From Suillus spraguei (Eukaryota > Basidiomycota > Agaricomycetes > Boletales > Suillaceae): 64,000 bases of DNA. The notes beneath the pieces are model-generated. The model saw nothing but the letters and a program-made list of their open reading frames with translations, was not told the DNA's origin and did no database searches. This document shows, piece after piece, positions 16,755-38,859 of this stretch (position 1 is the first letter of the stretch; each line of letters starts with the position of its first letter). The stretch is taken from the NCBI GenBank assembly GCA_016800925.1, contig JABCPU010000339.1, forward strand, positions 1 through 64,000, in the 5' to 3' direction. A program made the position numbers and the translations under genes.

Positions 16755-16825
16755 GATATGAACTCGGATCGGATATGGACACGGATCGGATATGGACACG
16801 GATCGGATATGGACACAGATGGATA
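16755..16825 (+). repeat. 17-bp tandem array (ggatatggacacggatc)
   Basis: About four units in copy 1 of LTR family A. The same array is expanded at 38860-39085 in copy 3. Since 17 is not a multiple of three, each unit shifts the frame, and all three plus frames stay open. Confidence 0.88.
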
Positions 16826-17130: not shown

Positions 17131-17910
17131 GATGGTACAGACTCCAAAGGCTCATATAAAGCCTACTCTGGGTCATCAGTCAGAAACCCTGCTCACATAT
17201 TTGGTTACCTCTCTGATCTCTCCATGGACTCAGATACCGAAGACGAGCAAGATAATACCAAACAATTTTCATACCATTCCACAGCACCACAACTGAAGCG
17301 TCAAAAATGTGATGTCCCATATTGTGTTGAAAGGGCCAAAAAGCAGAAGCAGCAACTTGAGGACCTTGCAGCAGCATTACAAGACATTGAAAAGATCATT
17401 TTGTCCAAAAAGACTCAATTTGCAGGAGGGATCCATGGACTCCAAGCAATATGAGCTCACACCATCCAACGTCATCTTACCTTGATCATCTGTAATGGCT
17501 GAAAATTCACTGATGCATCCCAGCATGCTGCAGAATCCCATGGCTTTGCATCAGGATGGGGTGAAAGACAGCTCCACAGCTGGACTTGGACTTGGGTAAA
17601 CTTGCGTGAGCTGCCAAAATCTTACTGTGGGTGTCACACTAAGGTATACTCACTCCTTATCAATCCTGACATTGCTGGAGAGTACAGGACTTACCTTTGG
17701 TCTAATAAATGGGCTGTTAACTCCAAAAAACTTGCTCAATTTACCAGTGGGAAGTTGATTCACAGTGCTGCCAGCAAACACTTGCAGCACGTGGTTGATG
17801 AAGAGATGCCAAAAGGTTTGGGAAAGTACCTGGAGTTGGAACTCTTTCCCCACATCCACATGAAAGTTGCACATGGTATTTCCTTAAGCAATGCTCATTG
17901 CTGGTGTTAA
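17131..17910 (+). pseudogene. DDE transposase gene, middle piece
   Basis: Continues the gene begun at 13957. Visible landmarks are GYLSDLS with acidic residues, KCDVPYCVERAKKQKQQLEDL, DIEKIILSKKTQFAGG (about 17390-17430), then after frame breaks CHTKVYSLL, SNKWAVNSKKLAQFT, VDEEMPKGLGKYLELELFP and KVAHGISL (to 17890). This is the order of the helix-turn-helix part of the same Agaricomycete DDE transposase family. The catalytic DDE part that should follow is absent: the sequence passes into LTR-like DNA at 17905. Several frame breaks (for example near 17450-17600) make it non-functional. Confidence 0.72.
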
Positions 17911-18229
17911 GGTTGTACTCAAAGAGTAATGGATCTAAAGGGCTTTGGCCTCAGCTTGTATGCTATGCCCCTTTCCTGGGTATTGCCCTTTATTTCAGAG
18001 GTGAAGGTATATGTCTGAAGCATCCAAAGATAGATACATATCAGATCCAGACATCTGGAGGTAACAGATATAGTTTGTCTGAAGGATATTTGCATGTAGG
18101 TATGGAATGAGGTATAAGACTAGTTTCGAACAGTGTCCTAACTAGAAACTAACAAAGATAGACTACCCAAAGGTAGAGCCAGAGATATAGACTATAGGAG
18201 ATAATCCTAAGTCTCGGAAGTTGACTAGA
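17905..18229 (+). mobile_element. Degenerate LTR of family A
   Basis: Begins TGTTAAGG and contains aaagggctttggcctcagcttgtatgct followed by gcccctttcctgggtat, a diverged version of the first 150 bases of family A LTRs. It is cut off at its 3' side by the start of copy 2. Only a fragment. Confidence 0.6.
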
Positions 18230-18860
18230 TGTTACAACCATGCAAAACAGGGGCTTCTAAGAAGTCCTGGTCTTACATGGGGTTGTACTGGAGGGACAGA
18301 AAGTCGAAGGGGCTTGGCCTCAGCTCGTACGCTGTGCCCCTTACCTGAGTACGTGCCCTTAATTTTGGATGAAGTCCAAGGGGGAGTTATAGTGAAGTCC
18401 GGACGGAGTCCGGATGAACTCTGTAGGACAGGATAGCTCAATAGAGCTCCGAAGGACTTCTGGATGGTAGGGAGTAATGGTAACACTACTGGAACAAGTT
18501 CCAAGTAGAATGGATGAAGGATGGACTTCTGCACAAAGTCCAGGGCAGGATAGGAGCAAAGCTCTGGAGGGACAGATGATCCATAGGTGTCAGAGGATAG
18601 GATAGGATAGGTCCGGAGCTTGGAGGAGTGGAAGAGCAGAAGAGTGGACGAGCAGATGATCGGATGAGCATAGCTCTATGGATCTTAGGGGAAGTGTTGA
18701 CTACTAGAGGGGAGTAGGTCCAGATATGGTATAGAAATAGTATAGACTACTTTGGACAAGGTCTGGAATAGAAACAGACAGGATAAGACTACCAAAGGTA
18801 GAGTCGGAGGTGAAACGGACAAAGTCCAAAAAGGATATAGGACAAAGGATCAAGGCTCCG
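18230..18860 (+). mobile_element. Solo LTR family A, copy 2, 3'-truncated
   Basis: Starts TGTTACAACCATGC and follows copy 1 through caaagtccagggcagg and the ggatcaaggctccg block, with no 9-bp array (only a few degenerate ggaggagtgg units at 18620). The match stops at about 18860, eight bases before the left tip of the KDZ element. The remaining 3' part of the LTR is not found beyond the right tip of that element. Confidence 0.75.
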
Positions 18861-18868
18861 AGCCCCTT

Positions 18869-18945
18869 CAGTGACAAACTCCGTACTATACGGGTCACCC
18901 GACCCACATAATATCCCGTCAAAGACGGGCCAGCGGATGGTGGGC
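18869..18945 (+). repeat. Left terminal inverted repeat of the KDZ element
   Basis: Starts CAGTGACAAACTCCG. Compared with the reverse complement of 36538-36614 it shares CAGTGA, CTCC, TATACG, the 13-base core CATAATATCCCGT and GGGCCAGCGGA at corresponding positions, with only one base of length difference over the span. Confidence 0.82.
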
Positions 18946-19455
18946 CGAGGTTATGTATATCCTCGATGTTGACGGATGGGCCGGGGGGAATATTATTTCC
19001 GATGGAGACGGGTGGGCCGGGAGACTTATATTTTCGGGAGAGACGGGTGGGCCGAGGGAAACATGATTTCTAATGTTGACGGATGGGCCAGGGGGATATA
19101 ATCCCCGACAGAGATGGGTGGGCTCATCTGGGTAGTATGTAGAGTAGGATATTATAGACAGCTGGGCTGAAGAGAGATGCAAGGCAAATATTATTGCATA
19201 GACGGGTGGGCCGAGGTAAGAGAATATTACATATACGGGTGGGCCGAGGTGAGAGAATATTACATATATGGGTGGGCCAAGGTGAGAGAATATTACATAT
19301 ACGGGTGGGCCGACGTGGGGTGTATTACATAGACGGGTGGGCCGAGGGTGCAGTAAAATATTTATTGCATAGACGGGTGGGCCGATGTGGGGGAATTTTA
19401 CATAGACAGGTGGGCCGAGGTAAAATATATTACATATACGGGTGGGCCTAGATAT
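18930..19455 (+). repeat. Left subterminal minisatellite (GACGGGTGGGCCGAGG)
   Basis: About 15 units of roughly 33-40 bases, each with a conserved gacgggtgggccgagg core and an A/T-rich linker such as agaatattacatata. It lies immediately inside the left terminal repeat and is repeated in reverse complement inside the right one. Confidence 0.9.
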
Positions 19456-19599
19456 GTATCATAAAGACGTACAGCTGATGTAGCCACCAGAGAATCAAAC
19501 ACATAGGATACATGCACCCTATGAGTGGATATACCTACCATCAACCACCAAAATCTAAACCCTGAAGCACAAAAACCTGAATTCATCATGTCTGACATT

Positions 19600-21870
19600 C
19601 ATCGATAATTGAGGTGCCGGGTGCCGGGTACCAAGTCCCGAATCCAGGAACTCGAAACTGGAGATGCAAACTAGAGATTTCCTGAATTCCAGATACCCGG
19701 ACACCCGAAACACAACACACAAGGTGAAAGATGTAAAGTCCATGTGTGGAGTCATCTAGTGCTGAGTGCCGGGTGCAGGTGCAGAGTACTGAAACTAGAA
19801 ACTAGAAACTCGAGATTTGAGACAAAACAGACATCTACCAAAAATGTGTGGATCAAAGTTTTGTTGTTGCCTGACATGTGTCTGAGTCCGAGGACCGAAC
19901 CCCGAAATTGTAGACTACCAGATTTCGGGATTTGGGGTTCGGCACTCGAGATTCAAGATTTGAGATGAAAAAGATATCTACCAAAAATGTGTGGATCAAA
20001 GTCATTTTATTGCCTCACATTGTTTTCGGTCTCAAGTGCAAAAGCCAGAGTACCGAACTGCGAACCCCTAAATAGTAGACTACCAGATTTTGGAGTTTGG
20101 AGTTCGGCACTTAGAATGTGTGGATCAATAGGTGTCTATTGCTTCACATTGTTCTGAGTCCCGAGTTGCGAGTGCTGGGTGCCGGGGTTCAGGGATCAGC
20201 ACTGACAATATGTTGCTCAAGATCTTTCACATTATGAGTACCAAGTCCCGAGTGCCGAGTGCTGGGTGCCGGGTGCCGGAGCTCGGAAGTCCCGAGTCCC
20301 GAGTGCCGGGTGCCGGAGTTCGGGGTTCGGCACATACAATATGTGGATCGAGGACTTTCACATTGTTTTGACTGCCGAACCCCGAGCTCTGGCACCCGGG
20401 AGTTAGCACAATGTGAGGCAATACCATAATATTGATTTACACATGTTGAGTGCCGAACCCCGAGCTCCGGCACCCGGGAGCGAGCACAATGTGAGGCAAT
20501 ACCATGATATTGATTTACACAAGTTGAGTGCCGAACCCGAGCTCCGGCACCCGGGAGCTAGCACAATGTGAGGCAATACCATAATATTGATTTACACATC
20601 TTGAGTGCCGAACCCCGAGCTCCGGCACCCGGGAGCTAGCACAATGTGAGGCAATACCATAATATTGATTTACACATCTTGAGTGCCGAACCCCGAGCTC
20701 CGGCACCCGGGAGTTAGCACAATGTGAGGCAATACCATAATATTGATTTACACATGTGGAGTGTCGAACCCCGAGCTCCGGCACCCGGGAGCTAGCACAA
20801 TGTGAGGCAATACCATGATATTGATTTACACAAGTTGAGTGCCGAACCCCGAGCTCCGGCACCCGGCACTCGGTGTTTGGCACTCAACTTGTGTAAATAA
20901 ATATCATGGTGTTGCCTCACATTGTGCTCACTCCCGGGTGCCGAGCTCGGGGTTCGGCACTCAACTTGTGTAAATCAATATCATGGTATTGCCTCACATG
21001 GTAACCCAGCACTCGGTGATCGTGATTCGGGACTCAACTTTGTATTGCCTCACATTGTTCTAACTCACGGGTGGCGGGGTTCGGGGCTCGGTGTGAAAAT
21101 ATATGGATCAATATCTGTCTCAGTGTTATGAGTACCACGTCCCAAGTCCCGAGTGCCGGGTGCCGGAGTTCGGGGTTCGGCATTCAACATGTGTACATCA
21201 ATATCTTTGTATTGACTCACATTGTTCTCACTCCCGGGTGCTGGGGTTCGGGGTTGGGTGGTTAAATATGTGGATCAATATCTTTCACATGGTTATGAGT
21301 CCCGAGTCCAGATTCCCAACTGCCGGGTGCCGGAGTTCGGGGTTTGGCACTCCCCACGTGTAAATCAATATCTTGGATTGCCTCACATGTTTCTCACTCC
21401 CGGGTGCCGGGGTTCGGGGGTCAGTGATAAAAATGTGCATCGACATCTTTCACATTGTTATAAGTTCCAAGGCCCGAGTCCCGAGTGCCGGGTGCCGGAG
21501 TTCGGGGTTCGGCACTGAACATGTGTAAATCAATATCTTTGTATTGCCTCATATTGTTCTAACTCCCGAGTGCCGGAGTTCGGGGTTCAGCACATCAGAT
21601 ATGTGGATCGATATCTGTCACATGGTGATGAGTCCCAACTCCAGGGTCCTGGGGTCCGGGGTTCGGCACTTCACATATATGGAATGATATGTTTCACAAT
21701 GTGACCCGGCACCCGGCACAAGGTAATTCGACAGAGATGTTTCAAATTCTTTAAATTGTGTGTTGTGTTTCAGGTAGCCGGATATCCGGAAGTCGCGAAA
21801 TATCAATTGTGAATCTCCATTGTCCAGTTCCGGATGTCCGGACTTGGCATCCAGCACTGACATTCATTCA
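19600..21870. repeat. Left CpG-rich satellite block (78-bp core array)
   Basis: Built from variants of a unit holding ccgagtcccgagtgccggg, ggagttcggggttcggcac and an A/T-rich part (acatgtgtaaatcaatatc, attgcctcacattgt). At about 20380-20865 six units repeat with a strict 78-base period, so the minus strand stays open with a 26-residue repeat (PELGVRHSTCVNQYYGIASH core). At about 20870 the orientation flips, giving a large foldback. No gene is present. Confidence 0.9.
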
Positions 21871-21900
21871 AACATTGTATATACATCTATGAACCTACAA

Positions 21901-24037
21901 TTATGTAGCCATTTCACCCTCATCAGCAGAGGGTTCAACCTTCACCTCAACATCCATATCATCAGAATCATATTCTGGGACAAGGTTGCCCGGATCATCT
22001 GGGTCCACAAGTTCGCCGGACGTTTGTGGACCCTCAGGCTGAATCTGGCTCAGCTCAAATATGAGACCCTCAATGATAGATGCAGGCTGGACTTTCGGAG
22101 ATGGAGGCTCCATTCCTGCCATATCCAAGTCAATGAGGGGAGCAAGTGCAGATGGGAGTGGTGAGATGGCCAGGGGGACGGATTGATCAAGCAAAAAGGT
22201 TGCATTGACAGGAGAGTCGGGAAGTGGAAATGAAGGGTGCCGGTCCATGACTTTGCGACGAAGGCCCTCATGGAGGCGTTGCAGGGTATCAATCTTACCA
22301 TCCTGCTCCGCCACACGAGCCTCAAGAAGAGCAATTCGAGCGGCACCATCCCGAATCGCAATTGCCATGGAATGGAGATCCGGCATGGGAACATCCAGTG
22401 CCGGACGAGGCACTGGGGCGCTTGAAGACGGAATAGCTAAGTGAAAGATAAGGTCAGATGGTCATAGACAATTGGGGTGACTCACAAGCTGATGCAGGTG
22501 CAGGTGTCTTGGGGGCAGTGATTGTCTTGCTGCGCCCACGGGACTGTGCCTTGGGTGTGGTAACAGCAGGGACAGCTGGAGTGCCGGAGGGGCCACGAGA
22601 TTGACTGCGAGTTCGGGCTTTGGACTGCGAGGCAGCCGGCGCATTGGAGGGTGCTCTGGAAGGTGTCCTGGAGCGAGCCTGCCGGTGGTAGACTTCCCTC
22701 GAATACGTTTTGGCGGGGATCCCATGGATGCTGGGACACATTTGATCTTCTTGGTGGCGCAGCGGACGCACGACAAACATGGGGCACGGGTCCTCCTGTC
22801 CAACCGAGTGGCGCAGGGCCACTTCTCCTGGGTGCAATAATGGCAGGGGTTGTTCTGTGGGTTCCATTAGTTGATGGACTCATTGGAATTCATTAGAGTA
22901 CTCACTGGGCCGGGAATGAGAATATCACCTGTATCCATGACTGCAGGTTCCTCAGCCGGAGTGCTGGACATTGCCTGGGGGGTCTCGACAACCTCCGGAC
23001 GACTGCCGGAGGTGGCCTGACAATGGGTAAGTACAGGGGGAGGTCCGGACAAAGAATGATGACTCACCATCACCTTGGGTGGACTGCCGGCAATGAGCTG
23101 ATGATACATAAGCATTTTTCCAAGTGCCGGACAACTAAATATTACTTACTGAAGCAGGACCAAACAATTGCTTCTTTGGGGAACGTGGTGAACGAGGGGA
23201 ATGAGGCGTCCCTACACCAATTGTGGAAGGCCGGGGAACGTTGAGCGCCGGCACTCCACTCGAAATAGGCTACAGAAAATTGAGAGAATGAAAACAATGA
23301 GCTGGACGACATACCTGAACAATTGTGTCTTCATCATCTTCCGACTCCACAAGCACATTCTGCTTGACATGGCGAGTTGCCTTGACCCGCTTGCGACCCT
23401 TCTTGGCCGACTTCGGAGGTGAGGAAGAGTGTCCGGACATCATGGGGGACTTCCTCTTCCTGCTCCCTTCCACCTCCGGCTCTGGGTCAGCAACAACCGC
23501 CTTACCTTTTCCTTTGTCCCGGAGCTCGGAGGTGGCATGGGTGGAAGAACCAGCGACATTGCCGGCGATGACGGGTGGGGAGGGAAGGTCCACAGTGATT
23601 GGGCCAATGGAAGGGTTAGGCATGACAGGGAGATCACCTGAATGGTCACCTAACGCCTCCCAGGCGCGAATCTTGCTGCGCCAGGAGTGTTTCAACACCC
23701 GGGGGTCGTCATGACCGATGCTGTGCCAGTTGGGCCACACCCGGGGAGTCATGGACCTGACTCTCATCAACTCCTTGGAGCAGGATGCAATGATGCCGGG
23801 CATGTAAGGCCCTTTCTCATGCTCCCGGACAATCTCAGCCTACCCAGATCTTAGAAAAACCAAAAGTAAAATTAACACATGAATGGTGCTTACCACAAGA
23901 TTAGTGACTTGTGCTGTCAGAGCAAGGTGGGCTTGGCCAGTGCCGGCAGGCATGAGCCGAGCCCCGGCGATGATGCCCACAATCTGAGCAGTGGTTGCCT
24001 TGAGACTGGCCAAAGAGGTTTCAACTGAAGTAGACAT
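21901..24037 (-). CDS. Cysteine-cluster protein of the KDZ element (function unknown)
   Basis: A multi-exon minus gene. The start chosen is the ATG at 24037 (MSTSVETSLASLKATTAQIV), with a GTAAGC donor after TNLV near 23892. The next exon (about 23842 down to 23310) has PGIIASCSKELMRV and VWPNWHSIGHDD, then Pro/Ser-rich and basic stretches (KSAKKGRKRVKATRHVKQ). A later exon near 22850-22700 has paired cysteines: Cys-x2-Cys then Cys, and CLSCVRCATKKIKC, suggesting metal binding. The C-terminal exon (22413-21901) begins with a heptad-like EARVAEQDGKIDTLQRLHEGL and ends acidic. Proteins with this layout (helical head, basic middle, Cys cluster, coiled coil, acidic tail) are frequent beside Agaricomycete transposons (recollection). 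A DNA-binding helper role is an inference. Intron borders between 23310 and 22450 are only partly resolved. Confidence 0.65.
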
Positions 24038-24256
24038 TTGGATTGACTTGAAAGATGTGAAAAGCTGGAGATAAGTTTGAAATCTGTGATCACTTGGATG
24101 AAGTTTCAAAAGAAACCAGACAATTGAAGGACAATCTTGATAAGCGTTGATTGTTTGTCTTTGTTTGGTCGTGGTTCAACTTTCGGCCGTTGCCAGCCAT
24201 GTGTTGAACTTCGAAGTTATCAGTTATCAATCAGTTTGATCAGTTGATCAGACATC

Positions 24257-25274
24257 ATGAGATCTCAACCAGCAGTCAGATTTTATGAACCTCCGGTCAC
24301 TGAATACAACTCAATGGATGTGGATGATTCAACCGAGTCCCGGATTTCACTAGGTATGTTGTGCTTTCAGTACAGCTCTCAATTGACCGGAGATGGACCA
24401 GATGCACTGGATGATGTATACCTTGGGCCGGATGATGAGACTGAGTCCCGGATTTCATCAGGTATGTGTTGCTTTGAGTATATCTTACAATTGACTGGAC
24501 ATTTATTAGATCCAAGTGAAGATGTATACCTTGGGCCGGATGATGAGATCGACTATGATTCTGGGTCATCAGGTGTTCCGGATGTCTTGGATGCAGTTTC
24601 TGGTAGGTTTCTCAATTCACATTTAGATAATCCAACTTTGGATGTTCATTCAATCCATCCAGATCATTTATACCCGGCTCAGCCTGAGGAACTGCCTTTG
24701 TTCAACGATCCGGACTTGTACCTAGGGCCTGATGATGATCTTATTGATTGTGATGAAGCACCGGAATGTGCTGATGTTGAGACTGATGCTCCGGCTATCC
24801 CAGGAATAGCAATTCCAGGTGAGTTCACCCATACAATCTCATTTTTATTGTTGATGTGATGTCCCAAGCACATGCAACACCTCCTAAATGTCAGTCCCCC
24901 ATACCAGAACTCAGCAATGAAGACCTGCGTGCCATGCTTAGGGAGTTCATGCCCCTAGGGTCATATGATCAAACAGAAATGTGAGGATTTAATTGTTCAT
25001 CATGTATCTTTCTGCTAATTTTCTTGAAGTTGAATCAATTCTGGATCGCCTGGACCATTACCAACAGCGTCATGACCATCTTCTGGAGCCTACCGTACAT
25101 CAACTCCTCGAGGCTGACCGACCATTCCGAGTGGCTTGGGCTGACACATCCGACAAACTCAGAAGAGCTGATATGGACCTCCGGAGGTTGCAAAGGGCCA
25201 AACAGATGAGCTCTGAATTGCTGCTTGTATTAGATACCCTCATTGAAAAGTGTGATGATCAACCCCATATGTAA
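24257..25274 (+). CDS. Acidic YLGPDD-repeat protein of the KDZ element
   Basis: Spliced plus-strand gene of no recognised family. The unspliced frame is open from ATG 24257, but good splice sites suggest introns. Two adjacent 108-base units each consist of about 60 coding bases (VYLGPDDE, then ESRIS) and a 48-base intron-like segment opening GTATGT and closing CAG or TAG. A third YLGPDDE and a fourth YLGPDDD follow. Further introns at about 24830-24880 (GTGAGT...AAG) and 24980-25029 (GTGAGG...AAG) lead to the last exon, which encodes a helical domain (SILDRLDHYQQRH...LRRADMDLRRLQRAKQMSSELL) and stops at 25274. The product is strongly acidic with a helical tail. It is divergent from the cysteine-cluster gene, 219 bases away. 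Function is not known. Confidence 0.55.
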
Positions 25275-25278
25275 ATAT

Positions 25279-25690
25279 TTTGATATTCATTCACATACTT
25301 ACATCATGTTCACCACTGAATTTTTCATGTATAACAATGACATTTCCAATTGATTTTAGATGATGCACACACCCAATTGTCCCATTCCAACAGCCAATTA
25401 TTGATTCCCGGGGTCCGGAGCTCGGTGATTGGGATTCATCCGGAACTCGGTGATCGGGTTTCGTGATATTTGGATTTTCATTCACATACTTAAATCATGT
25501 GAACCACTGAATTTTTCATGTATATCAATGACAGTTCCAATGTATTTTAGATGATGCACAAACCCTAATCTCTAATACCAACTACCAATGATTGATACTT
25601 GGGTGCCGGACCTCGGTGATCGGGAGTCGTCCGGAACTCGGTGATCAGGATACGTCCGGAACTCGGTGCTTAGGATTCAACATTTTGGAA
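25279..25690 (+). repeat. ~195-bp direct repeat, two units
   Basis: Two units, starting near 25283 and 25478, share ttcattcacatactta.atcatg, ccactgaatttttcatgtata and tagatgatgcaca. Each then ends with copies of a short CpG-containing motif, gtccggaactcggtgatcggga. The motif resembles the CpG-rich part of the satellite blocks. Confidence 0.8.
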
Positions 25691-25807
25691 GTGGGACACT
25701 GTGTTTTAAGAAGTGTGACAAATGATGAAAATGTGGTAAACATGGGGGCAGTTTGGTATATGTACATTATTTCCTTCCCCTTGCCCTGGTTACTCGAAGT
25801 GTACTCT

Positions 25808-27626
25808 CTACCGGCTTTTGAGACTTACTCCGGGTGGTCCTTGCGGATGGTTCAATGACAGCTTTCTTGCCTGTATACTCCTTGGTTCCGGCGATGCGTT
25901 CCTCTCTTCCACTTCCTCAGTGATCCCGGCCAGGAGGTCGCCCATCCGTGATGTCAAAAGTGCACCTGCCTTGGCCGGCCTGGCCGGGCGAGGCTCCGGC
26001 ATTGAACATGGAACTTCTGTCTCCTTGGGTGCTGAAGATGGGTGTGCTATTTGTCTGGGTTTCTTCAGTGGGGATCGACCATCAGCCGAGTCATCATCAA
26101 TGTCATCCTCCTTGTCATGAGTTTCACTGTCGGTATCACTCTCGGCTTCGGTTGATGGATCCCGGGGCCTTCGGAGAGTTCCACTCTTCTGCATTCTCAC
26201 TTGACGAGTCAGACGCGATGGCGACTTGCCGGATACCCAGATGGTACCATGTCCCCATCCTTGTTCTTCCATGCTTTGAACAGAAATGTTGAATCTTTTC
26301 CTGTTTCCTGCTGAGCATACCAGAAATTGAGCAAGGCCGTTGTGTCCCAGTTTTGCAACTTCGAAGGCTCCTTCAGGTCAATATCCGCCGGAAGATACTT
26401 CTTGCCACAAAGTCATCCTGACTTTGTACGAGGGCACTCCATGGCACGACAGCCTTGTCATTCCCGGAACATATTCCTGTGTCCACGCATTCAGCAACAG
26501 CTCAGATGTTGCCACGAAAGACTCACTGTAGTGCGATGTAAGAAACGCCCTGACTATGGCTTTCTTCTCCTCAAGTTTTGTTTCCGTGATGTCTGGAAGC
26601 AACGGCATCCCATTTCCATCTTTGTCGAGTTCCAAAGCTGGTTTTCTGACTCTTTTGCGACCTCCCTTGACCTGTCGTCCTCCGTCCTGTGCCCCGGCAC
26701 CTATCATTGTGATGATCAACGAATTCATTCTTGCATCCAAAGTTCAAACACTCACCGAACTGTTCCTGGGCGTACTCCTGCCATACTGGCTCAATGTCCT
26801 CCCAGTCCTTAGTCTTCATGAAGCTGTCCCCATCTCCTAATGCCTCATTATCATCATGCCTGCACACATATATTGAGATCCAAGATCGGCGATGACGGAC
26901 ACAATTGACTTACATCCCGAACAGAACCTCTCCCTGTTCATTCTTCCAAGCTGACAACACAAAAACTCTCATCCCGCATTGCCTCCACATCTCTTTCGAA
27001 AAGTGCTCCATATATGCCGGTCCCTTCTTACGAGCAACTTCTGCTTGTATCTCCGGAGGAGGAAAGCTGTTTGACCATTCTTCCGCTGTTTCTTTTGCCT
27101 TCTCCAACTCGTCGTCGTCCAATTCAGCCATGACTCTCTTCACAGCCCCCTGATAATGTTTGAACATACTGGGATCTCCCGGCTTTGCCCCGGACTCGTC
27201 CTCAATCCTCTTTAGCACCTCTTCGCGCTTCTGCTGGTAGACCACCATCCTAGGCGTCCATTTCCTCCCATACTTTATCATGTCCTTCCTTTCCTTCCTT
27301 TTCTTGTTGTTGAACAACCAAGTGTTATACATCTGAGAGTTGATGGAAGAATAAGATGTTAAAAATTGTAGTTTTTCAACACAACGAAGACGCATCACCT
27401 GCTTCCTCTTTTTCCATTGTCCTTGGTCGACTTTAGGAGCAAACAACCTGGCTGCCCTGGCAATTGCAGTGAAAACCCCTCGCTTCTCACCCCTTTTGGC
27501 CGCGGTCCACTCAGGAAGGTAGTTCTTCAACTCCGAAATTTCGTTTTCCGTGAGCTTCTGTGTCTGTGGTTGACGTGCCCTATTTCTGCCGGAAGTCAAG
27601 TGAGTGGAATGACCCGTCCTTGCCAT
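25808..27626 (-). CDS. KDZ-associated partner protein (family of unknown function)
   Basis: Starts at ATG 27626 (MARTGHSTHLTSGRNRAR). Exon 1 to about 26914 holds ELKNYLPEWTAAKRGEK, VDQGQWKKRKQVMRLRCVEK, KWTPRMVVYQQKREEVL, SGAKPGDPSMFKHYQGAVKRV, FPPPEIQAEVARKKGP and MWRQCGMRVFVLSAWKNE; it ends at a GTAAGT donor. After the intron: HDDNEALGDGDSF, KDWEDIEPVWQEYAQEQFG, a second intron (GTGAGT...TAG), then GGRKRVRKPALELDKDGNGM. The tail contains AVVPWSALV, KEPSKLQNWDTTALLNFW and an acidic, Ser-rich end to 25808. One frame break is likely near 26410. The same domain order is very common in Agaricomycete genomes beside KDZ transposases (recollection). It lies head-to-head with the transposase gene, about 310 bases apart. 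A role as accessory transposition protein is inferred. Confidence 0.75.
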
Positions 27627-27935
27627 GGTGAATCAAATTGCAGAATGGGCTGAGGATAAGCAAGGTGGAAGAATGAACGAATTGACAGAAGTTGATCTTT
27701 GACAAAAGCCTAACAGTAGCTTAATTGAGCTATATTGGTCCCGAAGCCATAAATGGACATAAATTTGTAATGAGTCGCAGGACTGTATGACACCACAATG
27801 TAATAAAAATTCATTCCACCTGAGCAGATGCTTTGCTCGCAACATTAGCATTATAAAATAAGATGAAGATAGGTAGATGCACCCCATTGCAAAATCCCAC
27901 AGGGTAGAAGCAAGGGGCAGCAAGGGTAGAAAGAT

Positions 27936-30900
27936 TTGGGTCAAGGTCCCACTTGCAAGCACAAGACGACGAGCCTACAGGTCCATGCCTCCTCTCCCCC
28001 AGAATCACCAACACTTCAGCCTGTTCAGGCACCACCTCCTTGGGATGACTTTCCTGACAATACATACGAGCAAGACCAAGGCTCATTTGAGCCATTGCAA
28101 CTCCCAAAAACCATGGCAAGTTCATGTTAAATGTTGGAGTGTCATTCAAACTATAGCTCAATATAAAAAATGCAGAGTCAAAATGACTACCTCAGGCAAT
28201 GGCTGCCAAGGCAGGAATCATATCTGCATCACCTCCTGGATCGAGAAGCTCCACCAGAAGACAGGAGATGCATCATCTGCCACCAGGATGGGGTCTACAA
28301 ATGTCAAGATTGTCTTGGCGAGCCTCTCTATTGCACGGGCTGTTGCAGGAGTCAACATCGTTGCAATCCTTTCCACTGGATCAGTCAATGGAATGGTCAA
28401 TTCTTCGAGCGGAGTTGTCTCGCTCATGTGGACTCACCATACACCTCGGGCATGATGGCAAGCAATGTCCGGTGCTCACAGATAGGTGGGATTTGTTCGA
28501 AGGAGATGAACCTGAAGATCAGCTTGAGCCCGAAGATCTTCCGTCTGTGTCGGGACCTGAGTTCCAGCCGAAGGAAAACACCATGGTCATCGTTGACAAG
28601 TCCGGAGTTCACCGCCTCGAGGTTCGCTGCTGCGATTGTCCAAATGCCATGAGTCCGGACATTCAAATGTTTCGGCATGGATTTTTCCCTGCATCGTTTA
28701 ACAGGCCGAAGACCGTGTTTACCTTCGGAGTGCTGGATGATTTTCTATTGGACAACCTTGAATGCGGCACCTCCGCAATGAACTATTACAGTAAGCTCCG
28801 GCGAATGACCTCGAGCATGTTTCCACACCTTGTTCCGGTAATGCTATTTGTGCTTCATCTAAAGGACATGATGTTGACACAGGCCGTGGCAAGGATCGAT
28901 ACAGAGAGCTCATGAGAGTCGCTCGACAGTGGAGGCAGTTGAAGACCATGAAATGGCATGGCTTATGGCCATCGTTCCTGACATCCCGAACGCAGGAGAT
29001 CTTGCATTATTTTGCCCGGCATGTCCTCAGCCTGGGATTAATGTATCTTTGTCAGGGGATGAATCACTTGATGAGTGAGTCATGTTCAATACCGAAGTGA
29101 ACTCGGCGATGATAAGAACTCCAAGCTGGAAATACACCCGGTCATTTGTGATGGACGGAAATTTCAAAGCTGAACACCTGCATCCCATTATCCCCTCGAT
29201 GAGTTTGGCTTTCAGATGGGCTTGGATTCATGGTCGGAAAGGACAGGTATAACATGCATCTTGCGAGGCTGCTGACACGGTGGAAAAATCGAGCTGCAAC
29301 AATCACCGGCGGTCAATCAAGCAAATGCGGCGCGGCACAAGCTCGAGTCCACAGGAATCGGGGAGTTGCCTGCGCCCGGCATGGGTGCTTGTCCCTCACT
29401 CGATGGTTGATTTTCAGAAAGGGGAAAGGCAAGCCAAACATGCCAATCACATTCACTAGTTGACCATGCATCATTTGCAGACAAATGAACATGGACTACG
29501 CCTTTGTGAGGCTGCCCAGCACAACATGAAGGCATTACCAGGGCTGTCACCTTCTATGACATCAATTGTCAATACAACAAGCACTTTTGTGTTCGGGTGG
29601 ATCGAAGCCGATACCTTGACATGGTACCGGAACTGACCATCATTCCTGGAATCGGTTGTGGCATGTGCATGGACATCAGGACAGTTGCTATGTCCGATAT
29701 GCTTCAAATTTTATTGAAGGCATTGGCCGGATTGATGGAGAGATCATGGAGACCCTATGGGCGCGTCTCAACCTGATTTCCCCTGCCGCTCGGGGAATGT
29801 CATCCCCGCACCGAAAGGAATGTCTTGATTATCAGATGAATGATTCCAATTTCTGCAAGATGATCCGCATGAAAAGGACTCTTTGCCGGAAATACAAGCT
29901 GGCGAAGAATGGCATCGCCGAAAGTGGCAAGGCTTTCGACAGACTTGATGAAGCTGCACCCAGCAATTTAAAGACACAATGGTTAGCCAGCGAGATGGTC
30001 GCTCAGTCCAAGAGAATCAGGGATCCTGCGGCGATGGATTTATATGAAATCAATATCAAGAAGGGTAAGTTAACATTCTTTGTCTCCGTGGAGCTCCGCA
30101 TTCATTTTTCACTTAGCACCAAGCAAAAAGGAGATCGAGCTTAGACTACTAGAAGGGGTAATGCCCGTCATGCAGCACCCTCTCGCAGATCTGTGGCAAC
30201 ATGGATATCCATTGGGTTGGCAATTGAAGAGGCTCAAATTGCATTGCTCATCGAGGTCCGCAGAATTGGAAGACGATCGATGGAGACACAGAGATTAGAT
30301 ATCGCCCGGCAACGCGATCGTATTCAAGGCCAGATAGATGAATTCACTCGGTCTGCTCTTACGCATCTGGGAGAGGGATTTGATGCAGATGACGATCCTG
30401 ATGACTTGAACATAGATATTCTTGACGATATCGATGATGACCCGGCGGATTTCACCGAGACATCTGATGCATGGACAAACTCCCCTGAGCTCACCATAAT
30501 TCCATTGCCATCAAACCTCGGGGTTGAACATTGCAGACGCTGTATGGCAGAGGATCTGATTCCGTTGGAGATGTCCCTTCGTGAAGGGCAGGCCAATGAT
30601 GCCCTGCACAATCTCCGCATTCACTTGTGCAACAAGGCTATCCTGTTCCGAACAACAGTTAGGCAAGCCAAATCTCAAGCCCTAAAAACTCGAGCGTGGT
30701 CCCAGGTGACATCAGTGCAGCAGGCAGTATCCCTACATGCCAGTATATATACAAAAACCAGGAAGCAAATGATACAACTTGAGCCGGGGCCAGACCAGCT
30801 TCAGAAATACAAACCCCTGCTTCGCGAGCAGCTCAAAATCAGCACTGCCATCGGCGATCCAAACGCCCGAGGTCAGCGAAATGAGTCCCTCGCTTGGTTC

Positions 30901-31283
30901 TGGTCAGTGGAAGTCGACATGGAGGGTCCAGAAAATTCCTGGAATGAGGAATGTGAGTTCGGGCATGCTTGATATATTACGTGGTGAGCTGACAGGACCC
31001 ATCCCAAGTTTACCGAGTTCATTGGCTTCGGGCAAAGGCACTACGGGATCGATGGATGGAAGAAATATCATTGGTGCAATCAGAGATGGATTGGACGTGC
31101 AACTTTTTCTTGTGGAAGGCAACCACATGGGGTGCCCGGATGCAGGAATCATTGTTGAAACAACTTCCGGGTCATGCATGCTATGCCGGAAGGCAGTCTC
31201 AAATGTATTCCTTACTAGCTCAGGATGCACAGGCAGCATTTCAAGACCTGCAGCCCTCGTTGATCGATGGTGCACATGAATGA
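27936..31283 (+). pseudogene. KDZ transposase with CxC2 zinc-binding domain (frameshifted)
   Basis: DNA transposase of the KDZ superfamily. In order: PPPWDDFPDNTYEQDQG (about 28045); the CxC2 cysteine cluster CIIC...YKCQDC...LYCTGCC...H..NPFHWISQWNGQFF (28265-28410); LTIHLGHDGKQCP; PDIQMFRHGFFPASFNRPK; DRYRELMRVARQWRQLK after a GTAATG...AAG intron at 28838-28893; LALFCPACPQPGINV; FVMDGNFKAEHL; WHVHGHQDSCYVRYA and NFIEGIGRIDGEIMETLWAR (29656-29780), the conserved KDZ core; then the C-terminal helical part to YRVHWLRAKAL and the stop at 31283. At least five single-base frame breaks (near 28430, 28965, 29210, 29300, 30190) interrupt it, although nearly every family landmark is still readable. 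The transposase is most likely dead in this copy. The divergent neighbour is the partner protein. Confidence 0.85.
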
Positions 31284-31454
31284 ATTTGTTTTGCTGATGA
31301 AACGCATATTTGACACCCAAACATTGAGTCCCGGGAATTGTCCGGGTCAGCCCATGTCGGAGTTTGAATTTCTAATCCATCCATCAGTGACTCATATCAT
31401 CAGCTCTTTACCATCTGTCAGTGTCATTCCCAGCGTCACACTCTTGCATTAGCC

Positions 31455-32256
31455 ATGCCTGAAACTCCTGCATCCACATCTGGCACTCCAAATACTGGAC
31501 ATCACTGGCAACCCATGAAGCTGAACCTTCAAGATATTTCTTGTACTTTGAATATGGCTGCATCGCGCATCCGCGCATGTATCTCTCAATATCAGATGGA
31601 GGCTGCTAACAACCCTCCCTCTTCTGCCCAGATCATGTACTTTAAAGCTGGGTTGCAATGGGAGATCAATGTAAGTGACTGATTACCGGATGACCGGCTG
31701 ACTTTTTTGGGCAATGCTGAGATTTCCAACAGACATTTGTTACGCCACTCCTGCAGTACTCAGCTGCAAGGAACATCGTTTCTGTTGTTCCAAGCCCCGT
31801 CGCTCATGTCCTGACATTGTATCCCATGCTCACCTGGAACACTGTTCCAGACCACATCTTTTCATCCCACCTATGTCAGTTTGATGATGTCGCAGCTCTG
31901 GGACATCCATCCCGGATTATTCCCAGCTATGATACTCCATGGTGGATGGGACACACCGAAATTCCGATGAACCATGGCAATGGGGTCAGATCATGAGGTC
32001 CTGTGTCGTTCACTACCAGCATTGGATGGTAAATGGAGTTGAGGATGATGGCTTGGTTCTTCCTGAGGAGGTAAATGACTCATCAGGCCCATCAGTGATG
32101 GGACTTAAGATGATTCGAGCACGCCTGGTAGCATTGATGGAGGAGCAAGATGAGGGTATCCATGAGAAGATGGCAGAGGTGAAGATGTACACTGACATGC
32201 TACAGAGATTGAAGAGAGGCAGGGGAGTGGAGTCCTCTTCACTGTGTTTAGATTAG
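31455..32256 (+). CDS. Second accessory protein of the KDZ element
   Basis: Exon 1 runs from ATG 31455 to about 31671 (WQPMKLNLQDISCTLN...ASRIRACISQYQMEA), ending at a GTAAGT donor. The acceptor is CAG near 31730, followed by TFVTPLLQYSAARNIVSVV, HVLTLYPMLTWNTVPDHIF and DTPWWMGHTEIP. The frame then shifts by one base near 31980 to RSCVVHYQHWMVNG and ends with a helical tail (MGLKMIRARLVALMEEQDEGI) at 32256. It follows the transposase stop by 171 bases on the same strand. No family is recognised by name; context and size suggest an element-encoded helper. The frame shift makes this copy suspect. Confidence 0.6.
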
Positions 32257-32419
32257 AATGGTCTTCATTTCATACATGATGTAAAATATTTTATTCCGTC
32301 CAAATGATTGTCTTGACTCCCGAATATTTTGTTCCGGATTTTGAGGACTGGATGTCAAGATCCGGATGTAGAGTCCTAAATCCCAAATGCTGAGTGGTGA
32401 ATGCCTGAGTGCAATGGTA

Positions 32420-34190
32420 CTTAGAGTTTGGGACTTAATTCATGGGACTCGACTTCCGAATGGCAAGATTGCCTCACATATTTCTGAGTGGCGAGTCATG
32501 AATCTTAGGTACCGAACCCCGAACCCCACAATTGTGGACTACCGGATTTCATGGTTTGGGGTTCAGCAATCAAGGTTCGAGATGAAATAGATATCTGTGC
32601 GACAGTGCGGGGTTCGGCAGTCAACATATGTGGATCAATAACTTTCACATTATTCTGAGTGCCGAGTCCCGAGTTCCGGGTGCCGGGCCTCGGCAGTCGG
32701 CGTTCAGCACTTCACATGTGTGCATCCATATCATTCACAATGTTGTGAGTCCCGAGTCCCGAGTCCCAAGTTCCGGGTGCCGGGCCTCGGCAGTCGGCGT
32801 TCGGCACTTCACATGTGTGCATCCATATCATTCACAATGTTGTGAGTCCGAGTCCCGCTGCCGGAGTTCGGGGTTCGGCACCCAACATGTGTGGATTATT
32901 CTGAGTGCCGAGTGCCGAGTTCCGGGTGCCGGGCTCGGCAGTCGGCATTCGGGACTTAACATGTGTGCATCAATATCATTCACAATGTTGTGTGTCCCGA
33001 GTCCCGAGTTCCGGCTGCCGGGGTTCGGGGTTAGGCACTTTACATATGGGAATCAGTATCTTTCACAATGTTGTGAGTCCCGAGTTCCGGCTGCCGGAGT
33101 TCGGGGTTCGGCACTCAACATGTGTGGATCATTGTGAGTGCTGAGTGCCGAGTTCCGGGTGCCGGGGCTCGGCAGTCGGCGTTCGGCACTTAACATGTGT
33201 GCATCAAAATCATTCACAATATTGTGAGTCCCGAGTTCCGGCTGCCGGAGTTCGGGGTTCGGCACTCAACATGTGTGGATTATTCTGAGTGCCGAGTGCC
33301 GAGTTCCGGGTGCCGGGGCTCGGCAGTCGGCGTTCGGGACTTAACATGTGTGCATCAATATTATTCACAATGTTGTGTGTCCCGAGTCCCGAGTTCCGGC
33401 TGCCGGGGTTCGGGGTTAGGCACTTTACATATGGGAATCAGTATCTTTCACAATGTTGTGAGTCCCGAGTTCGGGGTTCGGCACTCAACATGTTTGGATT
33501 ATTGTGAGTACCAAGTGCCGAGTTCCGGGTGCCGGGGCTCAGCAGTCGGCGTTCGCCACTTAACATGTGTGCATCAATATCATTCACAATGTTGTGTGTC
33601 CCGAGTCCCGAGTTCTGGCTGCCGGGGTTCCGGGTTCGCCACTTGATATGTGGGAATCAGTATCTTTCACAGGGTTCGGCATTCGGCATTCGGCACTTTA
33701 CATGTAGGACTCAATATCTTTCTCGTTCTTCTGAGTCCCAAGTCCGGACTGCTGGCTGCCGGGGTTCGGAGTTCGGCCCTCAACATGTGTGGATCAATGA
33801 CTTGCACATTATTCTGAGTCCCGAGTCCTGAGTGCCGGCTGCCGGGATTTGGAGTTCGTCATTTATGATATGTGAATTCACATCTTTCACATTGTTCTGA
33901 GTCCCGAGTCCCGAGCTCCGGCTGCCTGAGTTTGGGATTTGGCACTCACTATATGTGAATTCATATTTTTCACATTGGTGTCAGTCCTGAGTCCCGAGTG
34001 CCGGCTGCCGGTGTTCGGTGTTCGGCAGTCACAATGTGTAGGTCAAAGTCTGTTGCCTCACATTGTGCTGCCTCACACTTTCCTGAGTCCCGAGTGTGAA
34101 GCCTGAATTCGGACTATCGATCATTGAGTCCCTAATTTCGAGGATCGAGTCCCGAGTCCCGAGATACACATAGTTAGGGACTCAATTCAT
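32420..34190. repeat. Right CpG-rich satellite block
   Basis: Irregular tandem repeats of roughly 75-95 bases, each with gagtcccgagttccggctgccggg, ggttcggggttcggcact and a linker acatgtgtgcatcaatatcattcacaatgttgtg. It is the same family as the block at 19600-21870, in the same orientation as the outer parts of that block. It separates the second accessory gene from the dioxygenase gene. No gene lies here; open frames are repeat artefacts. Confidence 0.9.
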
Positions 34191-34300
34191 GGAACTCGAC
34201 TTCTGACTTGAGTTCCAGAACTGTTGATGCTCTCATTGGTACATGGTATTCGTGTGTTGCTACTAACATGGGTCACAACTCTTTCAACTTCTTTGATCTT

Positions 34301-35607
34301 TCACACCGTGCTTAGTATGTGGCCTTCGACCATAGCCCATCCACATGAGGGAACCCCGGCATAAATGTGCACAGAATCCCTCATATACCATGCCCAAGCA
34401 ATCCGATCCCCTTCCCCTCCATCAACACCATGTCTCACAATTCTTCCTGAAAATGCAATCATACAGCCGGAATCATACCTGAATTCCAGCTGAAGGCTTG
34501 GCATACTCATCCGAGCATTAGAATAGTTCCCCATGGTGGTGAGAATATCGAAGCATTCAGGAATCGATAAATGGTCTCGATGATTGGGAGTTTCCCGATT
34601 GGAAATGATGGAGAGGCTGTTAAACACGGATGCCCAGTACTGCAGGGTCTCTGGCATCTGTGGCAGTTCCTTGCTCACTGCCTTATCTCCGAGGTGTGAC
34701 AAGGCTCGTAACCCTGCAAAATACTGCTGAGGATGCATGACCCTGAGTGCCGCCGATGCGATGGCTGCCGGCCTTGCAATAGCTTTCAGGATATTCTCGG
34801 AGGAGGGTCCCTTCAATGATGCGGATACCTCCGGATCTGACAGATTCTATGGGATTGGTGAGTTTGACTCCAGAAATCACCATCTCATCACATCCTACCT
34901 CGTGGCCCTGTGAAACCATGCCAGAGATAAATTGATGCATCCGGGAGTTGACCCAACATTTTCCGAGCCCTGTTTGAACCATTCTTGATTATATCGCCAA
35001 TTGCCATCAGCCTTTACACTTTTTTTCGAGGCTTGGACCCAGCAAATTGGTGGCCGCCCTGATTTCCTTCTGTAGGTACCATTTGATATTCAATATCCAT
35101 TGAGTAACAATCTACACATTACGCACCTGGGTGGTCTCGGTCAGGGCGTCCGGAAGGTACCATGCGATGATGGTACCGGAAACATCGATAATTGTGGCAG
35201 GTTTGTCCACCACCTTTGTGCCCTCATGGCCAGGAGGACACCTCTCAAGCAACTTCTCCTCTTTCTCCTCATTATGCCCAGTGTTCTTTGGGGATATCAA
35301 TTTGCTATATCTTGCAATATCAATCTGTATCTTAACTGTCATGAAGGAATTTGAATGATCAAACACATTTTCAACATCTGCAGGAAGACCCACTGGGATT
35401 TTTATATGCCTTTATGAGTACATCAGCCAAGCGATCGCACGCCATCACCAGATCAGTGTCCAGGTTTGGAGAAGGTATAACCGGTTCTCCTCCAGTCTTC
35501 TCTGCATTGAATTTTTGTTCGGTATATGCCCCTGCTTCATGAGTGATGGCCAGGGCCCAAGTGCGCCAGATTTTTATGTCACAAGTGGACATGGAAGAAG
35601 TGTTCAT
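34301..35607 (-). CDS. TET/JBP-like 2-oxoglutarate/Fe(II) dioxygenase
   Basis: Members of the TET/JBP family oxidise 5-methylcytosine (TET) or thymine (JBP) in DNA with Fe(II) and 2-oxoglutarate. The C-terminal part is one unbroken frame (34816-34301). Numbered within that frame, SNRETPNHRD supplies His79 and Asp81 of the metal-binding HxD motif. After FDILTTMGNY, LQLEFRYDSGCMIAFSGRIVRHGV supplies the distal His129, and GDRIAWAWYMRDSVH supplies Arg138 for 2-oxoglutarate. The N-terminal exons start at 35607 (IWRTWALAITHEAGAY, DTDLVMACDRLADVLIKAY, GLPADVENVFDHSNSFMTVKI, KLLERCPPG, IIAWYLPDAL), with introns near 35070-35130 and 34855-34907. Single-base breaks occur in A-runs near 35405 and 35028 and near 34920. 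So the gene may be inactive even though its catalytic residues survive. It lies inside the KDZ element, between the right satellite and the right end. Confidence 0.78.
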
Positions 35608-36144
35608 GTTGCAAGTTGATATTGGGAAATCAGACGCTGAATGCTGGATGTCCAGACTTTGGTGTTAAAGGGGGTGGAGATAGCGAGGATCAGATAAGGG
35701 AACCTTGGATGATGTTGGCTTTCAAAGCTGTATTATCATCCATTGCTCAATGAAATACCAGATGATTGGAAGTGTGCTGGATATCTGATATTCATTTGTC
35801 CAGACCCGGGTTCGGAACTCCGGAACTTGGTATGCTTCACTCAAATTTCGGGGGTTGGAACTGGGTGTCTCGTATTGACTGAATTATGTGTCGAGACCCG
35901 GGTCTCGGAACTCGGAACTTGGTATGCTTCATCTGATTTTCGGGGGTCGGAGCTGGGTGTCTTGTAGGGCAACACAAGCCTCGCACCCCAGTTTCCACAT
36001 TCTACAAGACAACCTAAGCGTCACAAAAGGCCATGTCAAGACAGCACCTGCTGCTCCAGGAACTCAGTAACTGTGATTTATTACCTCCTCTGATTCAGAT
36101 GATATGCAACTCCCTCAGCTCCGTCATGTCTACCATTATCATAC
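35608..36144. other. Spacer with a short direct repeat
   Basis: No gene. Two direct units at about 35803-35880 and 35893-35965 share gacccggg and cggaac...ggaacttggtatgcttca, and end with tttcgggggt.ggarctgggtgtc. They carry the same CpG-containing gcggaactcgg flavour as the satellites. Confidence 0.55.
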
Positions 36145-36540
36145 ACATGGGCCCACCCGTCTATATTTTATACCACCCTCAGCCCACCCGTCTAATATAA
36201 TATACTGTACAACACCCTCGGCCCACCCGTCTAATAAATATTTATATAACACTCTCGGCTCACCCGTCTAATACCCGTCTAATTTAATATGTGTCTGGGC
36301 CCACCCGTGTATGTGATAACAAGTACCCTTCACATACCTGTCTATTTGATACACATCTACCTTGATACACCCATCTACATGATATCCAACTACCTCGGCC
36401 CATCCGTCTACCGGATATTCATGTACATCGGCCCACTCATCTACTCTACATATTCCTTGCATGGGCCCACCCGCTGTCATCGGGAATAATATTCCTCCCA
36501 GCCCATCCGTCATCAACGAGGATATTTCTACCATGGGCCC
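36145..36540 (-). repeat. Right subterminal minisatellite (CCTCGGCCCACCCGTC)
   Basis: About ten units of the reverse complement of the left subterminal minisatellite, with cggcccacccgtcta cores and A/T-rich linkers. The inverted orientation relative to 18930-19455 supports the two as matching ends of one element. Confidence 0.88.
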
Positions 36541-36614
36541 ATGGTCCGCTGGCCCATATCATACGGGATATTATGCACGTCCGTTCACTCGTATAATATG
36601 GAGATAGTTCACTG
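36538..36614 (-). repeat. Right terminal inverted repeat of the KDZ element
   Basis: Read on the minus strand it starts CAGTGAACTATCTCC and contains TATACGAG, CATAATATCCCGT and GGGCCAGCGGA, matching the left terminus. Immediately outside it begins the truncated coding sequence of the Plavaka partner gene. Confidence 0.82.
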
Positions 36615-37727
36615 TAATATGTGATATGAGTCAGTGAAAATTCATTTGAGAACTGAGTTCTCACTGAATCTGTAGTGTGACAAGCATCCTGCGACTTGGA
36701 TAGGGTTCTCATGAGCAGCACAGGGTCTTGCTTCAAGCTAGCTGCAGGTTGAGATGTCTCTGGCTTGAGGTCTGAGTGAGTCGAGTCAACCTCCATAGAA
36801 TAGTCATCAATGTCAGATAGCAGATCACAGTCACTTGCAGTGGCATCAAAGTCTTCAATTTCACTGGTAGATGAAACCTCCAGGATGTCTGCTGCCTTCC
36901 TTTTGGAAACAGGCTTAGGACGAGGCATTGGCCATGCCTCACTACTCTGAGTGAATGGAGGCTCAATATATGCGCTGGCATCAGATTCATTGAGTGTGAG
37001 TCCAACAGTAGTCTGTAAAGATAAATCAGTTGTGTGAAATATCAATAAACAAAGGAAAAAATCACTGTAGCTAGTCCCTTGCCTTTCTTGACCATTGAAC
37101 GAGCAAGCTGGCATTCTAATGAATCATCCTCCTCCTCTTCATCATCAAAGCCTCCAACAAGCACATCTCCAGATTTTTTGGTGGTTTTGGCCAAGGCAAC
37201 ACTCTCAACAGTGACTTCAGAAGTCCCTGTGAGCCGGCTGAAGATAGTAGAAGGGGGAACTGAGGTAGAAGACTTATGAGTTGATGGTGTATGAGGCTTG
37301 AAAGATTTGTTGACACCAGAGATCCAGCTCTGTGTTACGACCATGCAAAACCAGAGATTAGTAAGAAGTCCTGGTCTTACATGGGGTTGTACCGGAGGGT
37401 TGTAAGTCAAAGGGGCTTGGCCTCAGCTCATATGCTGTGCCCCTTACCCGAGTATGTGCCCTTAATTTTGGATGAACTCTAAGGCAGGATAGCTTGACAG
37501 AGCTCCGATGGACTTCCGGATGAGCGCGGGAATGCGCCGGAACTATTTCTGGAAGGTAGGGAGTAATGGTAATACTACTGGAACAAGTTCCAAGTCGAAC
37601 AGATGAAGGATGGTCCGCTGGACAGAGTCCAGGGCAGGATAGGAGCAGAGCTCCGGAGGGAAAGATGATTCATAGATGTCAGAGGATAGGATAGGATGGA
37701 TCCAGAGGACTAGGGGTCCGAAGGTCC

Positions 37728-38229
37728 GGAGCTCGGAGGAGCGGAGGAGCGGAGGAGCGGAGGAGCGGAGGAGCGGAGGACCGGAGGAGCGGAGGACCGG
37801 AGGAGCGGAGGACCGGAGGACCGGAGGAGCGGAGGACCGGAGGAGCGGAGGACCGGAGGACCGGAGGAGCGGAGGACCGGAGGACCGGAGGAGCGGAGGA
37901 GCGGAGGAGCGGAGGAGCGGAGGAGCGGAGGAGCGGAGGAGCGGAGGAGCGGAGGAGCGGAGGAGCGGAGGAGCGGAGGAGCGGAGGACCGGAGGAGCGG
38001 AGGACCGGAGGAGCGGAGGAGCGGAGGACCGGAGGACCGGAGGACCGGAGGACCGGAGGACCGGAGGACCGGAGGACCGGAGGACCGGAGGACCGGAGGA
38101 CCGGAGGACCGGAGGACCGGAGGACCGGAGGACCGGAGGACCGGAGGACCGGAGGACCGGAGGACCGGAGGACCGGAGGACCGGAGGACCGGAGGACCGG
38201 AGGACCGGAGGACCGGAGGACCGGAGGAC
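37728..38229 (+). repeat. 9-bp tandem array (ggaggagcg / ggaggaccg)
   Basis: Same position in the LTR as the copy 1 array but with two unit types. The left half mixes ggaggagcg and ggaggaccg. The right part, about 38021-38229, is a homogeneous run of about 23 ggaggaccg units, a variant absent from copy 1. Confidence 0.95.
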
Positions 38230-38859
38230 CGTGGATCTTAGAGGAAGTGTTGGCTACTAGAGAGGAGTAGGTCCGGATATGGTGTAGAGATAGTATAGAC
38301 TACTCCGGACAAGGTCCGGAATAGAAACAGACAGTATAAGACTACCAAAGGTAGAGTCAGAGGTGAAACAGATGATAGACGGAGATGGACGAAGTCCGAA
38401 AAGATTATAGGACATAGGATCAAAGCTCCGGCCTAGGGAGTGATCCCATAGGCCTGAGTCGGAAGCTTACAAGGCCGGAGCCCAAGTGCAAGAACGGAGA
38501 CGGAGTTATATAGACATGATAACAGGATACAGAGTAATCAAAGGAATATACAGAAGTAGGAACAATGAATCAGACTAAGGTCTGCAGGAGTTGTACTACA
38601 AGTTTATATACTGCAGGAGCATGCCAGAGGGTAAGTATGGATAGTCCAAGGCTATGTCTGAAGCATACAGAAACACATTAGTAAGTACAGCGGGACATAA
38701 GGCTATGAACTCGGAGATGAAGCTCATACGAAATACTTATCAAGACGGAGGCAGAGATCACCGAGAACCGGAAGCACAGAGATACCCAGAAGCTGGAGAC
38801 ACAGGTATATTCTAAAAGGGGTAATGCGCAGGTGCGTGGGAATAGTTCGGATATGAACT

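Follow-up and report, generated by a model that had tools for sequence, protein, structure and literature searches.

Complete KDZ transposons that carry a TET gene are already known from mushrooms. The text of Kojima 2025 (PMC12730594) describes complete TET-bearing Kyakuja elements in Agaricomycetes, including Boletales, reports 7-bp target duplications, proposes an escape from silencing, and notes that no experiment has yet tested what TET genes do on mushroom transposons. Oxidised 5-methylcytosine (5mC) has been found in transposons of two mushrooms and connected with silencing, as given in Licyte 2022. We analyzed a 64,000-nt stretch of the Suillus spraguei genome (contig JABCPU010000339.1, positions 1 to 64,000; hereafter the window), which is contig C524 of the genome searched (86.2 Mb, 1256 contigs). 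Judged by its sequence, the window almost certainly contains one copy of a multicopy, six-gene DNA transposon of the KDZ superfamily that in print is closest to the TET-bearing Kyakuja elements. Its genes are a KDZ transposase, a TET/JBP dioxygenase (TET), and four accessory genes, in the order g1(-), g2(+), A(-), KDZ(+), g5(+), TET(-). This kind of transposon is known, and complete boundaries of TET-bearing KDZ elements, which an earlier sequence-only reading of the window had offered as possibly new, are in print (Kojima 2025, PMC12730594). The Suillus family and its four accessory genes were not met in print. The main text of Kojima 2025 (PMC12730594) has no match for Suillus, "accessory", or "subterminal", and a literature search met no report of this family, of its accessory genes, or of a comparison of CpG decay between TET-bearing and TET-less elements.

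The element shares with TET-bearing Kyakuja the combination of a KDZ transposase and an AG-type TET in one delimited unit, target duplications of 7 bp (in four of 14 two-ended copies here), and a host in an order, Boletales, from which such elements are reported in the text of Kojima 2025. Unlike two Laccaria Kyakuja families, which that text describes as ending in 5'-CA..TG-3' with no inverted repeats, it runs from CACATATTA to GGGGCTC and has an imperfect inverted repeat of 145 nt. It is filed here under KDZ, nearest Kyakuja, since the text of Kojima 2025 gives those termini for the two Laccaria families and does not say that they define the lineage. Zisupton and Dileera belong to the same transposase superfamily, and the 8-bp target duplications given for them in that paper (PMC12730594) differ from the exactly 7 bp of four clean copies here. 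The Suillus TET resembles CcTET of Coprinopsis cinerea (structures 7vpn, 7w5p; 8jkk) in its aligned HRD motif, Asp337 equivalent, second His, and Arg; unlike CcTET, it has Ser for Gly331 and a shorter N-terminus, and it is known here from sequence alone. Plant VANDAL transposons encode anti-silencing proteins with a reported effect on methylation. The likeness to them lies in a proposed element-encoded anti-silencing function, whereas the proteins are unrelated and the effect on methylation is one reported for VANDAL. The VANDAL proteins are named in the introduction of Kojima 2025 (PMC12730594).

Window positions 18860-36623 have six other collinear copies (C304, C324, C236, C365, C341, and C1), with 97.8-99.7% base identity to the window, gaps excluded. 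One (C365) is truncated 17 bp early by the end of its contig, and another (C236) is without about 0.5 kb at g1/g2. The unit proposed by the sequence-only reading, one delimited KDZ element with a TET/JBP cargo and four accessory genes, is thereby repeated as a whole. Its ends had been placed at 18869 and 36614; the delimitation held and the exact positions did not, the conserved termini reaching 9 bp further out on each side, with GAGCCCCTT preceding the left CAGTGA and CACATATTA preceding the right one. Among 55 distinct ends recovered by blast search only, 53 have exactly the canonical first 7 bases (GAGCCCC, n = 20, left type; CACATAT, n = 33, right type), L003 and L027 being the two departures, and the distinct ends have 54 different 20-bp flanks. 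The matching inverted repeats and inverted subterminal minisatellites of the earlier description are present. The repeat arms (18874-19018 and 36464-36608) are 145 nt long with 77% identity, and the core CATAATATCCCGT occurs 172 + 185 times in the genome versus 2 + 0 times for a reversed control.

Insertion was also traced through target sites. A perfect 7-bp duplication flanks four of the 14 two-ended copies (C1, C236, C297, and C150), a set that is partly dependent, since the window copy and C304 share both flanks and C341 and C493 share the left one. Because both flanks are common to the two, C304 is probably the same locus as the window copy. Uninterrupted targets exist for two of these insertions, the comparison that had been suggested for the element. 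An empty site for the C297 insertion was found at C23 with one mismatch, and for the target of C1 there are 26 uninterrupted repeat copies, all at three mismatches, the maximum permitted in that search; reversed controls gave 0 in both cases. Many contigs of the assembly terminate inside element copies, and full-length copies are therefore undercounted. One further two-sided locus was excluded from the 14: C378:97874-115566 (L015, L016) has right-type ends on both sides and is either two nested elements or a recombinant.

The same ends also enclose other contents. Seven copies of 7.1 to 11.0 kb (C38, C297, C299, C323, C376, C150, and part of C306) match the full element chiefly over its leftmost 2.9 kb and its rightmost 0.5 kb. 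In C323 and C376, the two examined, no stop-to-stop frame exceeds 179 codons past position 3000. The sequence-only reading had held that terminal repeats without these genes, or ends never found together in another copy, would point to a chance assembly of separate elements. Literally, the former was observed, in these seven copies. The latter was not, as both ends do occur together around collinear full-length copies, and for that reason the short copies are best taken for non-autonomous derivatives of the six-gene element, probably moved in trans.

All three profiles expected for the gene products match above cut-off in the window copy: CxC2 (5e-26), KDZ (PF18758, 1e-15), and Tet_JBP (1e-14; 4e-15 with the TET gene model). 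PF18758 is also matched by C304 and other copies of the family. No Pfam match above cut-off was obtained for g1, g2, A, or g5. The product of g1 has basic and acidic stretches and, by eye, a Zn-cluster-like Cys pattern near 22745-22860; 153 genomic matches were reported for its exon at 23273-23839. The C-terminus of g2, judged by eye from its sequence, is a probable coiled coil. Profiles built for A matched no credible solved relative (one match, E 0.096) and no consistent Pfam family (12 families, each in one or two of 35 members, best 0.0012), and those for g5 matched no solved relative and no consistent Pfam family (one family, in one of 34 members, 0.05). The 5' exon of the KDZ gene is uncertain, and its start may be further upstream.

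Table 1. Features of the KDZ element in the window (window coordinates)
Feature	Position	Strand	Remarks
Whole element, six-gene KDZ-type DNA transposon	18860..36623		17,764 bp; fixed termini and collinear copies
Left terminus (GAGCCCCTTCAGTGA...) and left arm of imperfect inverted repeat	18860..19018	+
Left subterminal minisatellite	19010..19448	+	unit GGGTGGGCC x9 within 19010-19440
Accessory gene g1	21901..24037	-	exon structure partly settled
Accessory gene g2	24257..25271	+	model tentative
Accessory gene A	25767..27626	-	about 5 exons; homologues named Suillus
KDZ transposase with CxC2 cluster	28187..31283	+	CxC2 at 28187-28912, KDZ at 29620-30141
Accessory gene g5	31455..32256	+	246 aa; one 62-nt intron in C236, C341, C365, and C304
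Internal tandem repeat array	32593..34061	.	between g5 and TET
TET/JBP dioxygenase	34301..35342	-	310 aa; two introns (57 and 52 nt) in C236 and C341
Right subterminal minisatellite	36150..36472	-	GGGTGGGCC unit inverted, x4 within 36150-36464
Right terminus (CACATATTACAGTGA..., minus-strand reading) and right arm of imperfect inverted repeat	36464..36623	-

The gene set recurs beyond the collinear copies. Gene A lies on the expected side and strand of TET, at a distance of 2.5-9.5 kb, at 67 of 150 loci (3, 2, and 0 in controls), a lower bound because contigs often end inside the element. Gene g1 lies beside A at 69 of 143 loci (0 and 0 in controls), which is no genome-wide rate, the g1 matches having been selected by visual inspection from contigs that also match A or TET. 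These counts drew on 150 of 150 TET, 143 of 152 A, and 75 of 153 g1 matches. A diverged copy, C294, retains the order TET, g5, KDZ, A, with its KDZ core cut. Nearly all homologues listed were named Suillus: all 120 among the matches listed for A (174 homologues), 88 of 89 for g5, and 117 among the 120 matches listed for TET (239 homologues). Among the matches listed, TET, A, and g5 all occur in 13 Suillus species, and 19 contigs are shared by g5 and A, 14 by g5 and TET, and 7 by A and TET (8, 8, and 2 when limited to contigs under 150 kb). Contigs were equated by species and length and counted as unique species-contig pairs (84 from 88 rows for g5, 114 from 120 for A, 116 from 117 for TET), and on long contigs the co-location of genes may be chance.

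Searches against solved structures with the TET product matched two distinct sequences, both aligned as CcTET, with E about 6e-38. In the alignment the HRD motif corresponds to His326-Asp328, the Asp to Asp337, and a Ser stands at Gly331; the second His and the Arg are retained. With HxD, the Asp337 equivalent, and Gly or Ser at 331, the protein belongs to the AG type. According to the text of Kojima 2025 (PMC12730594), Asp337 is essential for 5mC, and Kyakuja proteins usually have Gly or Ser at 331. An internal stop is present in 22 of the 150 scored TET matches in the genome. Across 120 homologues, aligned with gaps in 17 to 62 rows per catalytic column from cut gene models, residue 337 is Asp in 72, Asn in 21, Gly in 2, and Cys in 1, with 24 gaps. 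Of 58 residues at the Arg position, 31 are Arg, 14 are Gln, and 5 are Trp. HxD, His, and Arg are all retained in only 28 of the 51 rows having all six columns. Both the Asp337-equivalent codon (C before GAT at 34549-34547) and the Arg codon (CGG at 34405-34403) of the window copy coincide with a CpG, and transition at these CpGs produces Asn, Gln, and Trp; methylation of the TET gene itself would thus be apt to inactivate the enzyme. The ratio of nonsynonymous to synonymous substitution (dN/dS) between the TET gene of C236 and those of nine diverged copies is 0.37-0.74, and the ratio of means over the 36 pairs of the nine is 0.51.

An excess of transitions at CpG sites is what deamination of 5mC would leave. 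We compared this excess between families by taking the majority base as the ancestor and scoring transitions at CpG versus other C/G sites per site-copy. The window copy was excluded (C304 representing the same locus), and regions of poor alignment were filtered from the 17-kb and derivative families. The excess is 15.0-fold in the 17-kb TET-bearing family (220/8383 vs 73/41590), 13.5-fold in the TET-less derivatives (339/3149 vs 163/20501), and 17.2-fold in a Copia control consisting of one TET-less family with 10 copies of 0.95 kb (81/779 vs 22/3629). Ratios over variable sites, with 95% bootstrap intervals, are 15.7 (12.1-20.9), 11.5 (9.6-14.0), and 13.0 (8.8-21.1), respectively. A smaller methylation footprint than in TET-less repeats was not seen, the excess being equal within error to that of the derivatives and the one Copia family. 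In an unfiltered test of six blocks, again without the window copy, the excess is present in all six. The lowest value, about 3-fold, comes from the left repeats, which align poorly; the TET gene and the right end reach about 19-fold and 21-fold, respectively. There was no TCG preference among CpG transitions in the copy-family test. Observed/expected CpG is 0.91-0.93 in the subterminal repeats versus 0.52-0.62 in the genes. Protection limited to the ends was considered in view of this higher content and rejected, as the right end has the same CpG-transition excess.

Because the excess matches that expected from 5mC deamination, the element has undergone methylation in the past and was shielded no more than other repeats. 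The sequence-only reading had proposed that the enzyme oxidizes 5mC on the element's own DNA and so counters silencing; this is unsupported, since CpG decay is as strong here as in the derivative and Copia families. At the sequence level there is no sign of lasting protection by TET, and the test is silent on brief or genome-wide action; the derivatives, too, could profit from the enzyme. We propose that the KDZ transposase would bind the inverted subterminal repeats and would also move the 7-11-kb derivatives in trans. The predicted TET may oxidize 5mC at CpG, whether for a short time upon activation of a copy or genome-wide in trans, and it does not hold the element unmethylated in the long term, copies decaying by CpG transition like other repeats. 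That TET acts briefly or globally is, from the sequence record, an even call, and as a whole the explanation (a KDZ element, brief or global TET action, no lasting self-protection) is favored by a modest degree. Several observations weigh against it. The window copy is without a target duplication, as are 10 of the 14 two-ended copies in its perfect form. The KDZ and TET frames of the window copy are broken, KDZ by two private 1-bp losses (after 29189 and after 29201) and TET by a stop after 92 aa in its gene model; one base is missing from the CxC2 exon of C236, and no single copy was demonstrated to have all six genes intact. Since all seven aligned copies have private 1-bp indels, assembly error is a reasonable explanation in place of decay, and the 1-bp breaks of the window copy are perhaps such errors. 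The dN/dS values below 1 are a weak sign of selection because divergence is small, and expression, binding, and enzyme activity are predictions at this stage.

A chance assembly of separate elements can be rejected: that the ends also occur with other contents would agree with it, and six collinear copies of the whole unit, 7-bp duplications around the full-length C1 and C236, the uninterrupted target repeat of C1, and the empty site of C297 speak against it. The remaining alternatives concern TET. That it acts in cis to keep the element's own DNA unmethylated, and so to escape silencing, was put forward in the text of Kojima 2025 (PMC12730594) and agrees with the retained predicted active site, the 128 of 150 genomic TET matches free of stops, and the richer CpG of the subterminal repeats; it is nevertheless improbable here, given a CpG-transition excess that equals that of TET-less repeats and extends to the TET gene and the right end. 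TET might instead act genome-wide, or 5-hydroxymethylcytosine and 5-formylcytosine marks might regulate or silence transposons including this one, with N6-methyladenine as the main substrate in one variant. This is unlikely, yet deserves serious consideration. Oxidised 5mC is described as enriched in retrotransposons and DNA transposons and tied to silencing (Licyte 2022), the text of Kojima 2025 (PMC12730594) reports that CcTET acts on N6-methyladenine as well and proposes non-target-specific action, and equal CpG decay across three families fits an action that does not favor the element; a gene of no help to its carrier, however, should be lost more often. A TET that is a passenger no longer needed by the element would account for the decay of catalytic columns by CpG transition (21 Asn of 96 at 337; 19 Gln or Trp of 58 at Arg). 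This is very improbable in view of the stop-free matches, dN/dS below 1, and the co-occurrence of TET, A, and g5 in 13 Suillus species among the matches listed. Hardly less doubtful is a reading in which g1, A, g5, and TET would form a sequence-guided machine that demethylates the CpG-bearing GGGTGGGCC repeats during transposition, the accessory proteins, which accompany the element in many Suillus species, guiding TET to these repeats. Guided demethylation at that time only is compatible with the lack of long-term protection and, if true, would be an enzymatic counterpart of plant VANDAL anti-silencing.

Whether TET protects the DNA of its own element becomes testable in this genome, which offers many related TET loci, natural TET-less derivatives that keep the ends, and a simple readout in the CpG-transition excess; by that readout, lasting self-protection is disfavored. 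A and g5 are new accessory families that specialists may study.

The element lies next to or inside other repeats: direct repeats about 22,095 bp apart (93-96%) flank it at window positions 16000-18860 and 37330-39125, and positions 18230-18850 are a repeat with about 40 scored copies. The right flank (36624-37187) occurs elsewhere only beside C304. An open reading frame (ORF) at 36449-37123 (-) with no Pfam match runs into the right end of the element and may be a host gene interrupted by the insertion. A fragment of a Plavaka transposase (PF18759, 2e-56), from another superfamily tied to TET in fungi, lies at 41035-42213, with no TET match close by in the window. A Tc1/mariner element (DDE_3, 5e-16) at 46632-48100 has 40 full-length copies scored among 356 candidates, all 100% identical after rounding, and is a recent burst; its copies are too alike to serve as a further control for the CpG comparison. 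A Na/H exchanger ORF (55240-56280, 2e-21) lies within 53812-60472, and the ORFs neighboring it (53812-54963 and 59330-60472) are similar to each other by eye.

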